A DNA stretch of 64,000 bases from the NCBI GenBank assembly GCA_015068975.1, contig SVJM01000008.1, positions 1 through 64,000 of the forward strand, read 5' to 3'. Within the stretch, counting starts at the first letter, position 1. Every line of letters begins with the position of its first letter. The position numbers were made by a program, and so were the translations under genes. Of the stretch, positions 15,803 through 46,935 are shown piece after piece. This DNA is from Oscillospiraceae bacterium (GTDB lineage: Bacteria; Bacillota; Clostridia; UMGS1810). The notes beneath the pieces were generated by a model, which worked only from the letters and a program-made list of their open reading frames with translations, made no database searches and was not told the origin of the DNA.

Positions 15803-15981
15803 ATTGCATTGCAAAGCAATGCAATGAATTGCCTGACGGCATGAATTGAAATCTATGATTTCATGAATTGAGTCTACGACTCATGAATTGCACCTTCGGT
15901 GCATTTTAGGCAATTCAATTCATGGAGCGGAGCGAGAATTCATGGCAGAGCCAATTCATGACAAGGTCGTTGTCAATTCAT
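15803..15981 (+). repeat. Multi-hairpin array A: ATGAATTG linkers with variable mini-hairpins
   Basis: An opening 10-bp hairpin with AAA loop (15803-15825) is followed by four forward linkers ATGAATTG (15824, 15841, 15863, 15883) and then four inverted linkers, CAATTCAT or GAATTCAT (15916, 15936, 15952, 15974). Between the linkers lie tiny hairpins: GCC-TGAC-GGC, GAAATC-TAT-GATTTC, GAGTC-TAC-GACTC, GCACC-TTC-GGTGC, then a GCGGAGC element, GGC-AGA-GCC and GACAA-5-TTGTC. Forward and inverted linkers can pair, giving a closed multibranch fold. It occupies the 3' region of cysK, where no normal terminator is seen. Arrays B and C in this window share the design. Confidence 0.8.
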
Positions 15982-19738: not shown

Positions 19739-19899
19739 TATAAAATTTAAAACATTAGTTTGCCGATTTTGATATTTACATACACTATCGGATGCGAGAA
19801 AATCCAGTATTCTCGCGGGTTCTAATGAATTTTGTTTAGGAAAGAATTAGCGAAAAATCAAGGAAAAATTAGTAGGTCCTAATACGAGCTTTCGAGTAT

Positions 19900-19959
19900 C
19901 AAGGTTCTCGGGTACCCAACAGAAATCTGTGATTTCGTGTTGGGTGATGGTTCTTATTA
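19900..19959 (+). repeat. Hairpin direct repeat, copy 1
   Basis: This 60-bp unit is repeated 68 bp downstream with one base changed. It folds into ACCCAACA / TGTTGGGT (19914-19921, 19938-19945) stacked on GAAATC-TGT-GATTTC (19922-19936), a near-continuous 14-bp stem with one bulged G. The inner hairpin matches a module of array A. Confidence 0.75.
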
Positions 19960-19967
19960 CGGAGTAA

Positions 19968-20027
19968 CAAGGTTCTCGGGTACCCAACAGAAATCTATGA
20001 TTTCGTGTTGGGTGATGGTTCTTATTA
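19968..20027 (+). repeat. Hairpin direct repeat, copy 2
   Basis: The second copy differs from the first only in the loop triplet, TAT instead of TGT. Here the inner hairpin GAAATC-TAT-GATTTC is identical to the one at 15848-15862 in array A. Confidence 0.75.
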
Positions 20028-20050: not shown

Positions 20051-20095
20051 AAAGTCTGATTGTGTCAAAAAATATATAAGGGAGGGAGAAATGAA

Positions 20096-21445
20096 ATGGG
20101 AAGATTTATAAAAAATTTATCATCAATACAAATAATTATGTGGGCTTTTTTGTTTGTGATTATATTCGGAAGCCTTCTTTTAAGTCTGCCTATAAGCTCT
20201 GCAACGGGAAAGAGTGTTTCTTATGTTGATGCACTTTTTACTGCTACAACAGCTACTTGTGTTACAGGTCTTGTTACCTTGCCTACAGTATCAACATGGA
20301 GTGTTTTTGGACAGGTTGTAATACTTCTTCTTATCCAAATTGGTGGATTGGGAGTTATAACAGTTATTGCAGGTTTTGTAACGATTTTTCAGAATAAAAT
20401 TGATATAAATGACAAAATCATTATCAGCGATTCATTTAATCTGAACTCCCTTGGCGGAATAGTTAAGTTTGTAAAAAAAGTAATATTGCTGACCTTTATA
20501 ATAGAACTGGCAGGAGCATTATTATATATGACTGTTTTTGTTCCTGAATTTGGTATTAAAGGAATATGGGTGTCGATTTTCACTTCTGTATCTGCTTTTT
20601 GCAATGCAGGTATAGATATAATTTCTGAGAATAGCTTGTATGAATATGTACTGGATCCTGTAGTCAATATTACAACTATTATGCTTATTATTTCAGGTGG
20701 TATCGGATTTGTTGTGGTATTTGATTTGATCAGACTGGCAGGAAACAAAAAACGAAGGGGTTTAAAGTTTTTATCCTTGCACAGTAAAATCGCACTTTCC
20801 GTTACCGGTTTTCTGATACTTTTTGGTACAGTGCTTATTTTTGTTTTTGAATATAACAATCCTGATACTATAGGAGGATATACATTTATTGAAAAGATTA
20901 TGGTATCCTTGTTTCAATCGGTTACTTTAAGAACTGCAGGTTTTGCATCAATAGCTCAGGAATGTATCACTGATGCTTCTGCATTTATATCAATGCTACT
21001 TATGTTTATCGGTGGTTCACCCGGGGGAACAGCCGGCGGTATAAAGACGGTTACGTTTTTTGTTTTGATTGCAAGTACCGCCTCAGTTATAAAAAACAAA
21101 AGAACAGTAGATGTGTTTAACAGACGAATTCCAACAGAAATCCTGAAGCGTTCTGTTGCCGTCTTTATAGTTTCATTATTGACTGTTTTAGGAGCAACTA
21201 TTCTGCTTATAGTTTTTAACGGCGGAGAGTTTCTTGATATCTTATATGAAACAGTCAGTGCTACAGCTACAGTTGGATTGAGCAGAAATTTTACAAGCAC
21301 ATTAAATACAATGGGCAAAATTATAATTACATTAACTATGTATCTTGGAAGAGTAGGGCCTATTTCTCTGGCTTTTGCCTTTAGTGTAAATAAAGGCAAA
21401 GAAAATCTGATTGAAAATCCCGTTGAAGAAATAAGTGTTGGATAA
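20096..21445 (+). CDS. ktrB: TrkH/KtrB family potassium transporter, membrane subunit
   Basis: A 449-residue membrane protein with the four-fold M1-P-M2 layout of Trk/Ktr/HKT channels. Selectivity-filter segments are visible as 'TATCVTGL', 'SAFCNAGID', 'TLRTAGF' and 'SATATVGLS', each with its conserved Gly. It takes up K+ (often Na+-coupled) and works with the cytosolic RCK subunit encoded next. An upstream TTG is in frame, but the GGAGGGAG site fits the ATG at 20096. The ktrA gene follows after 12 bp. Confidence 0.92.
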   Translation: MGRFIKNLSSIQIIMWAFLFVIIFGSLLLSLPISSATGKSVSYVDALFTATTATCVTGLVTLPTVSTWSVFGQVVILLLIQIGGLGVITVIAGFVTIFQNKIDINDKIIISDSFNLNSLGGIVKFVKKVILLTFIIELAGALLYMTVFVPEFGIKGIWVSIFTSVSAFCNAGIDIISENSLYEYVLDPVVNITTIMLIISGGIGFVVVFDLIRLAGNKKRRGLKFLSLHSKIALSVTGFLILFGTVLIFVFEYNNPDTIGGYTFIEKIMVSLFQSVTLRTAGFASIAQECITDASAFISMLLMFIGGSPGGTAGGIKTVTFFVLIASTASVIKNKRTVDVFNRRIPTEILKRSVAVFIVSLLTVLGATILLIVFNGGEFLDILYETVSATATVGLSRNFTSTLNTMGKIIITLTMYLGRVGPISLAFAFSVNKGKENLIENPVEEISVG

Positions 21446-25390: not shown

Positions 25391-25458
25391 AAACTGATAA
25401 ATTATAATTATTTTGAATTTGTATCAAATTTTGTGAAAAAACCGAAAGGATGAAACAT

Positions 25459-26181
25459 GTGAAGATACTACTTATAAGACATGCAGAGCCTGATTATCCA
25501 AACAACACCCTGACAGAGAAAGGCTTTGTGGAAGCTGAATATCTTTCAGAGAGACTTGAGCATAGTGATATAACACATATTTATTCATCGCCTCTCAACA
25601 GGGCACTTCTCACTGCAAACCCAACTGCAGAAAAAATCGGCAAAGAAGTAGTAATATGTGATTGGCTTACTGAGTTTAACGGAAAAATCCTGGTAGATGA
25701 TAACAGAAGAATCCCATGGAATATGATGCCACGTGACTGGCAGAAGGAAACTGATATATTTAATATCAATACATGGCATAAAAGTGAATTATATACAAGT
25801 GCAGATATGCTTGAGAAATATGAGTATGTTACACAAAACCTTGATAAGCTTCTTGAAAGCCACGGTGCAAAAAGAGAAAATATCATTTACAAAGGCGAAA
25901 ACAACAATGACACAATAGCACTGTTTTGTCACTTCGGCTTGGGAATGGTCATTGCATCACACTTTACAGGTATTTCTCCGGTTTTGTTGTGGCAGACAAT
26001 GTTTATGCCCACATCTTCTGTTACAGAGTTTATTACAGAAGAAAGGGTAAAAGGAGAATTTGTTTTCAAATGTAAGCAAATGGGAGATACATCACATTTG
26101 TATGTTAAAAATGAACCTGTTTCAAATTCAGGCTTGTTCAGTGAATTTTTCGGCGGTGAAGGCGCAGGGGCACAGGTGTAA
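25459..26181 (+). CDS. Histidine phosphatase family protein (phosphoglycerate mutase-like)
   Basis: A 240-residue protein with the 'LIRHAEPDYP' catalytic motif (phospho-His in RHA, a variant of RHG), 'SSPLNRAL' and a second His in 'ALFCHFGLGMVIASH'. It should remove phosphate from a small metabolite; the substrate is unknown. An ATG at 25450 directly abuts the AAAGG site, so the GTG at 25459, nine bases from that site, is the better start. It has its own consensus promoter. The stop codon runs straight into hairpin array B. Confidence 0.85.
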   Translation: MKILLIRHAEPDYPNNTLTEKGFVEAEYLSERLEHSDITHIYSSPLNRALLTANPTAEKIGKEVVICDWLTEFNGKILVDDNRRIPWNMMPRDWQKETDIFNINTWHKSELYTSADMLEKYEYVTQNLDKLLESHGAKRENIIYKGENNNDTIALFCHFGLGMVIASHFTGISPVLLWQTMFMPTSSVTEFITEERVKGEFVFKCKQMGDTSHLYVKNEPVSNSGLFSEFFGGEGAGAQV

Positions 26182-26183
26182 GC

Positions 26184-26296
26184 GGTGCAATGAATTGTCT
26201 TGCGACGTGAATTGAAATAAAAGATTTCATGAATTAAGCCGTTGGCTTATGAATTGCACCTTGTGGTACATTTTAATGCAATTCAATTCATTTTTC
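26184..26296 (+). repeat. Multi-hairpin array B, homologue of array A
   Basis: Four forward linkers close to ATGAATTG (26190, 26207, 26229, 26249) and one inverted CAATTCAT (26284-26291) followed by TTTTT. The hairpins between them are GTC-TTGC-GAC, GAAAT-5-ATTTC, AAGCC-GTT-GGCTT and GCACC-TTGT-GGTAC. Unit by unit it aligns with 15821-15923 of array A. Stem 1 changes a C:G pair to T:A, and stem 3 changes G:C to A:T and T:A to C:G, all compensatory. The outer linker pair plus the T-run could make it act as a branched terminator of the phosphatase gene. Confidence 0.8.
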
Positions 26297-26369: not shown

Positions 26370-26783
26370 ATGTGGTTTATACTTGCACTTTTGTCTGCTA
26401 TATTTGCAGCACTTACATCTATACTTGCAAAGATAGGTATAGATGGAGTAAATTCAAATCTTGCCACGGCAATCAGGACTGTTGTGGTGGTTATTATGGC
26501 ATGGGGAATGGTCTTTCTGACCAATTCACAGAGTGGCATTGCAGAAATCGGCAAAAAGAGTTGGATATTTCTTATTTTGTCAGGATTGGCAACCGGTGCT
26601 TCATGGCTGTGTTATTATAAGGCATTGCAAATAGGGGATGCATCGAAGGTTGTACCTGTTGATAAATTAAGTGTAGTGATTACGTTGATTCTTGCATTTG
26701 TATTTTTGCATGAGCAGTTTACAACTAAATCGTTGATAGGTTGCATACTTATCGGGGTTGGTACTATGGTGATGGTTATCTGA
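26370..26783 (+). CDS. Half-size EamA-type membrane transporter
   Basis: A 137-residue protein with four to five hydrophobic segments and the EamA repeat features 'LSAIFAALTSILAKIGI' and 'ASWLCYYKALQIGDASKVVPVDKLSVV'-like spacing (the latter across residues ~78-103). Full DMT transporters carry two such repeats, so this single-repeat form must act as a dimer. The substrate is unknown. An AGAGGTGAT site precedes the ATG. It lies 79 bp beyond the end of array B. Confidence 0.85.
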   Translation: MWFILALLSAIFAALTSILAKIGIDGVNSNLATAIRTVVVVIMAWGMVFLTNSQSGIAEIGKKSWIFLILSGLATGASWLCYYKALQIGDASKVVPVDKLSVVITLILAFVFLHEQFTTKSLIGCILIGVGTMVMVI

Positions 26784-46430: not shown

Positions 46431-46712
46431 ATGTCTTTTTGGGAAGAATTTGCAGAAAAAGCAAAAGAAGGTGCGCAAAAGGTTCAGGTGTTTACCATGG
46501 AAACTGTGGATAAGGTAAAGCTCAAAGCAAGATTATCCAAGCTTAACAATGATGTTTCAAAGCTTTATACAGAAATCGGTAAACTTGTTTATCTGGAAAG
46601 ATGCGGTGATACCTTCGAGGATTACAGCGAAAAGCTGTCACAGTATCTTGAGAGTATTACTAATCTCAAAGACCAGATTAACGAAATTGAAAAACAGCTT
46701 GAAGATCTATAA
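46431..46712 (+). CDS. Small coiled-coil protein of unknown function
   Basis: A 93-residue, highly charged, almost all-helical protein. Heptad-like leucines run through 'KARLSKLNNDVSKLYTEIGK' and again to the C-terminus 'LKDQINEIEKQLEDL', so it should form a coiled coil. No signal peptide or membrane segment is present. A TAGGAGG site precedes the ATG. It is followed 19 bp later by hairpin array C. Confidence 0.7.
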   Translation: MSFWEEFAEKAKEGAQKVQVFTMETVDKVKLKARLSKLNNDVSKLYTEIGKLVYLERCGDTFEDYSEKLSQYLESITNLKDQINEIEKQLEDL

Positions 46713-46731: not shown

Positions 46732-46935
46732 TGCCGAGTGCCCTTAAGGACACTCGGCAGTGATATGAATTCCTACGGCATTCCCGATATGTGTTTCACA
46801 CTCGATATGCCTTGCGGCGCGATATGTCGCTAAAGCGACGCTTTTTTGAATTCATATCATATCGCAATTTCTGAAAGAAATTATATCGAATTTGTCGTAA
46901 GACAAATATATCGAGTTTGCGTAGCAAACATATAA
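46732..46935 (+). repeat. Multi-hairpin array C: CGATATG linkers with variable mini-hairpins
   Basis: A 9-bp leading hairpin (TGCCGAGTG / CACTCGGCA, 46732-46759) is followed by forward linkers TGATATG or CGATATG (46761, 46785, 46803, 46820) and inverted ones CATATCA/CATATCG/TATATCG (46853, 46858, 46882, 46907). GATATGAATTC (46762-46772) pairs perfectly with GAATTCATATC (46848-46858). Mini-hairpins include GTG-TTT-CAC, GCC-TTGC-GGC, GTCGC-TAAA-GCGAC, AATTTC-5-GAAATT, ATTTGTC-GTAA-GACAAAT and GTTTGC-GTA-GCAAAC. The architecture equals that of arrays A and B with a different linker word. Confidence 0.8.

Follow-up and report, generated by a model that had tools for sequence, protein, structure and literature searches.

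The window examined here, the whole 64,000-nt stretch of one Oscillospiraceae contig, contains between a phosphatase gene and a transporter gene an array of four hairpins with TGAAT spacers between them, and the question is what kind of element this array (B) represents. A sequence-only reading had aligned it unit by unit with a second array in the window (A), taken the changes in its paired positions as a sign of selection on structure, and suggested that it might also terminate transcription of the phosphatase gene. The first spacer of B starts 10 nt after the phosphatase stop codon, and its 3′ end reads AATTCAATTCATTTTTC. The proposed homology was borne out for four units: the hairpins of B align with the first four hairpins (hp) of A. 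In A, these are followed by a hinge and three further hairpins in reverse polarity, spaced by ATTCA, the reverse complement of TGAAT. B, which has neither the leading palindrome (hp0) nor hp5-hp7 as compared with A, is therefore a truncated copy. The third array of the window, which uses another spacer word, is situated after an ORF at 46431-46712. The window also holds a 68-bp unit in two tandem copies of 96% identity (19894-20027), just ahead of an ORF at 20060-21445.

Table 1. Positions of the arrays, their parts and the genes beside array B (S, spacer; S′, its reverse complement).
Feature	Position	Strand	Remark
Array A, hp0 palindrome TTGCATTGC-AAA-GCAATGCAA	15804-15824	+	
Array A, S hp1 S hp2 S hp3 S hp4 hinge S′ hp5 S′ hp6 S′ hp7 S′	15825-15981	+	full ORF-less element
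Histidine phosphatase gene (PF00300)	25450-26181	+	host gene upstream of B
Array B as a whole	26191-26290	+	left half of the element, truncated
Array B, spacer S1 (TGAAT)	26191-26195	+	
Array B, hp1 TGTCTTGCGACG	26196-26207	+	one pair changed from A (C-G to U-A); outer pair U.G
Array B, hp2 TGAAATAAAAGATTTCA	26213-26229	+	apical pair lost
Array B, hp3 TAAGCCGTTGGCTTA	26235-26249	+	two compensated pairs relative to A
Array B, hp4 TGCACCTTGTGGTACA	26255-26270	+	one C.A mismatch
Array B, hinge and two reverse spacers (TTTTAATGCAATTCAATTCA)	26271-26290	+	hp5-hp7 missing; T-run next
EamA-family transporter gene (PF00892)	26370-26783	+	host gene downstream of B
Third array, words CGATATG/CATATCG, hp0 TGCCGAGTG...CACTCGGCA	46732-46934	+	architecture as in A

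When the stems of B were compared with those of A, three pairs were found to have changed on both sides, one in hp1 (GCC/GGC to GTC/GAC) and two in hp3 (TGAGTC/GACTCA to TAAGCC/GGCTTA; G-C to A-U and U-A to C-G). Two others were broken: hp2 has lost its apical pair (C-G to A.G), and in hp4 the third pair is now a mismatch (C-G to C.A), so that the compensation first described holds for hp1 and hp3 and fails at these two positions; on account of its uncompensated changes, B looks like a decaying copy. Furthermore, A and B are homologous, as had been claimed, but are not the only two copies. A DNA search of this genome returned 14 matches at E <= 1.1e-7, corresponding to 13 copies, one of which is split in two; A, B and eleven further copies make up one family. 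A gapped spacer pattern matched 31 times in the same genome, whereas the reversed control pattern matched 0 times, and the spacer pattern was present in half of 16 genomes of the same family and in many uncultured gut Clostridia. The full order of a TGAAT-family element is an hp0 palindrome, four units of TGAAT plus hairpin, the hinge, three units of ATTCA plus hairpin and a final S′. Palindromes of at least 9 bp at the hp0 position stand ahead of 20 of 25 arrays, as against roughly 10% of window positions.

Covariation was assessed in 18 aligned left halves, in which 97.4% of cells were paired and 8 pairs had changed on both sides (2.1 after shuffling; 0 of 500 shuffles reached this). Sliding the partners lowered pairing to 20-50% and left 0-1 pairs changed on both sides. 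Similarly, across 25 full arrays each arm paired better with its own partner than with partners taken from other copies; this held in hp1-hp4, hp6 and hp7 (0 of 5000 permutations each, with relatedness among copies uncorrected); for hp2 the values were 0.91 with its own partner and 0.38 across copies. In contrast, hp5 is not a canonical stem (0.56 own, 0.54 cross); its conserved motif, GGAGCG..AGCGAGAAATCA, is non-canonical. Complementarity of the hinge to the 5′ arm of hp1 beside spacer 1 (4.36 contiguous pairs with its own copy, 2.58 across copies; 0 of 5000, again uncorrected for relatedness) gives hp1 two competing partners. This pairing is clear in the TGAAT family alone (0 of 5000 permutations); in an automated test across word families the first unit was the best match of the hinge in 20 of 39 cases, a figure that is only partly informative, given how often the first word deviates. 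The covariation that had been proposed as a check on the collected copies is thus clear in the 18 left halves, yet uncompensated stem changes occur in B and in the copies C28, C7_6434r and G001_C52. Moreover, the arrays L092, L127 and L161, which occupy one locus in related genomes and have upstream flanks that align over about 890 nt, nevertheless differ by whole hairpins, so part of the covariation may stem from the swapping of hairpins at the repeated spacer and not from point compensation. The hairpins have been kept from copy to copy, and the idea of structural selection is partly supported.

That B is simply the transcription terminator of the phosphatase gene appears highly improbable. 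Its hairpins are indeed followed by a T-run (26291-26295), but this run comes after an A+T-rich AATTCA stretch and not immediately after a G+C-rich stem, as an intrinsic terminator would have it. No terminator was called by a terminator scan at B, the outer stem is A+T-rich, sister copies have no terminal T-run, and the folding z-score of B is -1.5 on the + strand (-3.0 on the - strand; -3.8 for A). A known Rfam RNA family was also rejected as the identity of the arrays, since no match over the gathering score was found at any of them; the only such matches were to tRNAs and, in a flank, to one Gut-1 RNA.

A link beyond what the sequence-only reading could see is provided by the genes that follow complete arrays. 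At twelve loci the array lies 12-70 nt upstream of an ORF of 118-122 aa, which belongs to PF05635, the 23S rRNA intervening-sequence protein (88.7 bits against a cut-off of 33.8). At L057, L116 and L180 the PF05635 gene has a left half array on one side and a right half array on the other. We read the upstream regions of 105 PF05635 genes in Clostridia, collected by family and class searches, for an S...S′ array, a test that requires reverse-complement words and therefore gauges enrichment, not pairing. Such an array was present in 39 of the 105; among controls it was present in 1 of 525 (Markov-resampled sequences) and in 3 of 127 (neighbouring ORFs). About half of the PF05635 genes have no array of words recognisable by this test, and in a divergent clade of the 'VWQKAHEL' type it was found in 0 of 18. 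Other clades of the protein share this architecture but use different words (GCTAAAT, TGAAATA, CGATATG, ATGATAT, GTGAAG/ATGAAG and AGTGATG). The word agreed with that of the nearest neighbour of the protein in 43 of 45 cases (chance, 0.16), and the protein clades extend over several GTDB families, although this correspondence may reflect co-inheritance rather than binding. Three loci of another clade (L206, L207 and L252) are without a hairpin array and instead have A+T-rich repeats (gaattgataattgaaaatggaaagttgaaagtga) directly ahead of the gene, possibly another type of end. The one TGAAT-family PF05635 copy found in the present genome is broken, and its solo arrays may for that reason be inactive relics; the third array of the window has no PF05635 gene adjoining it.

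We then consider whether array and gene behave as a unit. In most copies what is shared is the array plus gene only, about 0.55 kb, without flanks. We compared 22 pairs of related PF05635 copies. Their principal block of similarity begins 61-346 nt ahead of the ORF in 20 pairs and ends no more than 122 nt from the stop codon in 21. There was no further similarity in 15 of these pairs; 6 had a separate flank match, some sharing a tRNA or rlmD target, and one pair (L230/L362) shared the downstream gene as well; shared target sites or common ancestry may lie behind these matches. Between unrelated TGAAT copies, upstream similarity covers only about 27-37 nt, namely hp0 with its TATAAT. Two copies (C9:2497 and L058) retain the array and both ends of the PF05635 gene with the middle deleted, and are deletion derivatives. 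An extended solo palindrome, ATGTTATAATGAGTTTGCAAAGCAAACTCATTATAACAT (hp0, with TATAAT on both strands), occurs without an array downstream of the array at L060.

Array sites in relatives are intergenic, often after rlmD or tRNA genes. The PF05635 gene starts about 210-290 nt after rlmD in five genomes (G057, G087, G092, G100 and G148), and at L104, L145, L158, L198 and L233 arrays, belonging to two word families, directly adjoin the 3′ end of rlmD; these 3′ ends are a hotspot. Here a palindrome precedes the array, and its right arm mirrors the codons of the local rlmD. By eye, no codon-mirroring palindrome was seen at the listed rlmD ends without an array, and the palindrome might be produced on insertion. 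The right arm alters the RlmD C-terminus at L104, L145, L147, L158, L198 and L233. Homologues of the genes flanking A and B in relatives have no array adjoining them, and these relatives are too distant to supply a closely related empty site; no target-site duplication is evident at the flanks. The element contains no transposase or recombinase gene. At L062 (G011:C2) and L373 (G000:C28), in two different genera, the sequence upstream of the array is identical over 128 nt while the downstream flanks differ, which may be due to recent transfer, rearrangement or a misbinned contig.

These data point to a little-known type of mobile element whose complete copies travel with their PF05635 gene between gut bacteria, and not to a stand-alone RNA terminator. 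We think it probable that A and B are ORF-less copies, B being truncated as well, of a small PF05635 element of about 0.55-0.6 kb, and that the array is its cognate recognition end. In the model we propose, the complete form consists of the hp0 palindrome, the hairpin array and the gene for the four-helix-bundle PF05635 protein. The protein, probably a pentamer, would recognise its cognate spacer word, four to five repeats of which in each polarity would be presented between the hairpins of a folded single strand, either an RNA leader or single-stranded DNA. The one solved relative identified by sequence, 2RLD, has five chains. The array would thereby act in cis as the recognition end, and solo arrays would be non-autonomous derivatives that are served in trans, persist and spread.

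An array that acts chiefly as a cis-regulatory RNA leader would instead be bound by the PF05635 protein in its own mRNA, much as by a TRAP-like ring, to control the synthesis of the protein, with solo arrays serving as 5′ UTR sites of other genes. Several copies start immediately behind a TATAAT box, which in some is preceded at 17 nt by a -35-like hexamer, and would hence be transcribed; these copies lie just upstream of a start codon, and both the covariation and the conserved non-canonical hp5 fit an RNA. However, A and B stand at gene ends and not in obvious leaders, a promoter-like sequence separates the array from the ORF at many PF05635 genes, and dispersal and unit boundaries require mobility in any case. 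We regard a primarily regulatory role as unlikely.

The hairpins, opposed polarity and dispersal of the arrays also resemble REPINs, single-stranded DNA hairpins whose movement depends on a Y1 (HUH) tyrosine transposase with its gene elsewhere, and like the REPIN/RAYT system they have a single-gene cognate partner that is outnumbered by ORF-less copies (PMC3116915). The partner here is PF05635 and not a Y1 transposase, the elements have seven hairpins with repeated words of 5-8 nt, and the inverted polarity that marks a REPIN doublet is seen within multi-unit arrays. Y1 genes scored over the cut-off in 12 of the 16 family genomes, but none of 16 Y1 (PF01797) loci had an array nearby, and two array-bearing genomes (G001 and G009, the latter only 71% complete) gave no Y1 match. 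The Y1/RAYT link was rejected on this basis, and with the arrays linked to PF05635 instead, movement of this kind is very improbable. A retroelement, in which PF05635 would act like the Avd protein with a reverse transcriptase in trans on the array RNA, is more doubtful still. PF05635 is related to Avd of diversity-generating retroelements, likewise a four-helix bundle (PMC10053308). Reverse transcriptase (PF00078) was nevertheless found in 0 of the 16 family genomes, while three positive-control genomes did match, and this link too was rejected; these genomes are fragmented MAGs, in which factors acting in trans may be missed. Neither template nor variable repeats were seen. Arrays often come after a hairpin, as group IIC introns do.

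The closest likeness by protein is to the intervening sequences of 23S rRNA genes with an S23p/PF05635 ORF, as in Coxiella (428 nt) and Leptospira, which have no transposase and are regarded as selfish (PMC4990558). The elements described here share with these the protein family, a similar size, the absence of a transposase and terminal complementary sequences, in that S and S′ are reverse complements and the hinge pairs with the first unit. Complete elements of relatives carry the PF05635 ORF, although A and B themselves do not. Unlike the intervening sequences, A and B lie beside protein genes and not inside a 23S rRNA gene, a multi-hairpin word array stands in place of a single 28-bp stem, and the elements are multicopy and dispersed, with ORF-less copies and a word specific to the protein clade. 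Being short, dispersed and ORF-less, with inverted ends, and derived from a coding element, they are also MITE-like, but they differ from MITEs in having no recognised parent transposase and an internal hairpin array; no target-site duplication was evident at their flanks, for which no closely related empty site was available. No description of a PF05635-linked element family was found in the open-access literature searched (subscription papers lay outside its scope), and one may still have been published. PF05635 proteins are common, with solved structures and without a known function; the clade-specific word array is a direct, testable candidate for their ligand. The element family offers a route to a mechanism of mobility or regulation without a known transposase, and could account for dispersed hairpin and short-word repeats of unexplained origin in bacterial genomes.

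Finally, we looked at 18 PF05635 loci outside Clostridia, on plasmids and phages, where short repeats upstream of the gene return as the reverse complement downstream. Repeats matched in 15 of the 18 own pairs and in 21 of 306 swapped pairs; two phage loci have Clostridia-type arrays upstream instead. This suggests that inverse repeats around PF05635 genes are a general rule, drawn from few loci, some of them close relatives. Short tandemly repeated repetitive (STRR) heptamers are a repeat type of cyanobacteria, and in cyanobacterial plasmids short repeats of this general kind, to which the likeness is confined, flank PF05635 genes inversely, without the intervening hairpins of the Clostridia arrays. 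We tentatively speculate, while holding it somewhat less likely than its opposite, that there is a widespread class of mobile elements without transposase. In each, a pentameric PF05635 protein would read a short word that is specific to its clade and is repeated inversely ahead of the gene or on both sides of it. Hairpins would separate the words in Clostridia, and in cyanobacteria and elsewhere the words would be bare tandem repeats. Solo word arrays scattered through many bacterial genomes, STRR heptamers possibly among them, would then be non-autonomous copies. In Nostoc and Anabaena plasmids (L381 and L388), the PF05635 gene and its short repeats lie between cas2 and cas1. At L386 and L387 the gene comes after a helicase/DISARM drmD gene, and at L378 between hsdS and hsdR; insertions of PF05635 genes into defence loci may be frequent.
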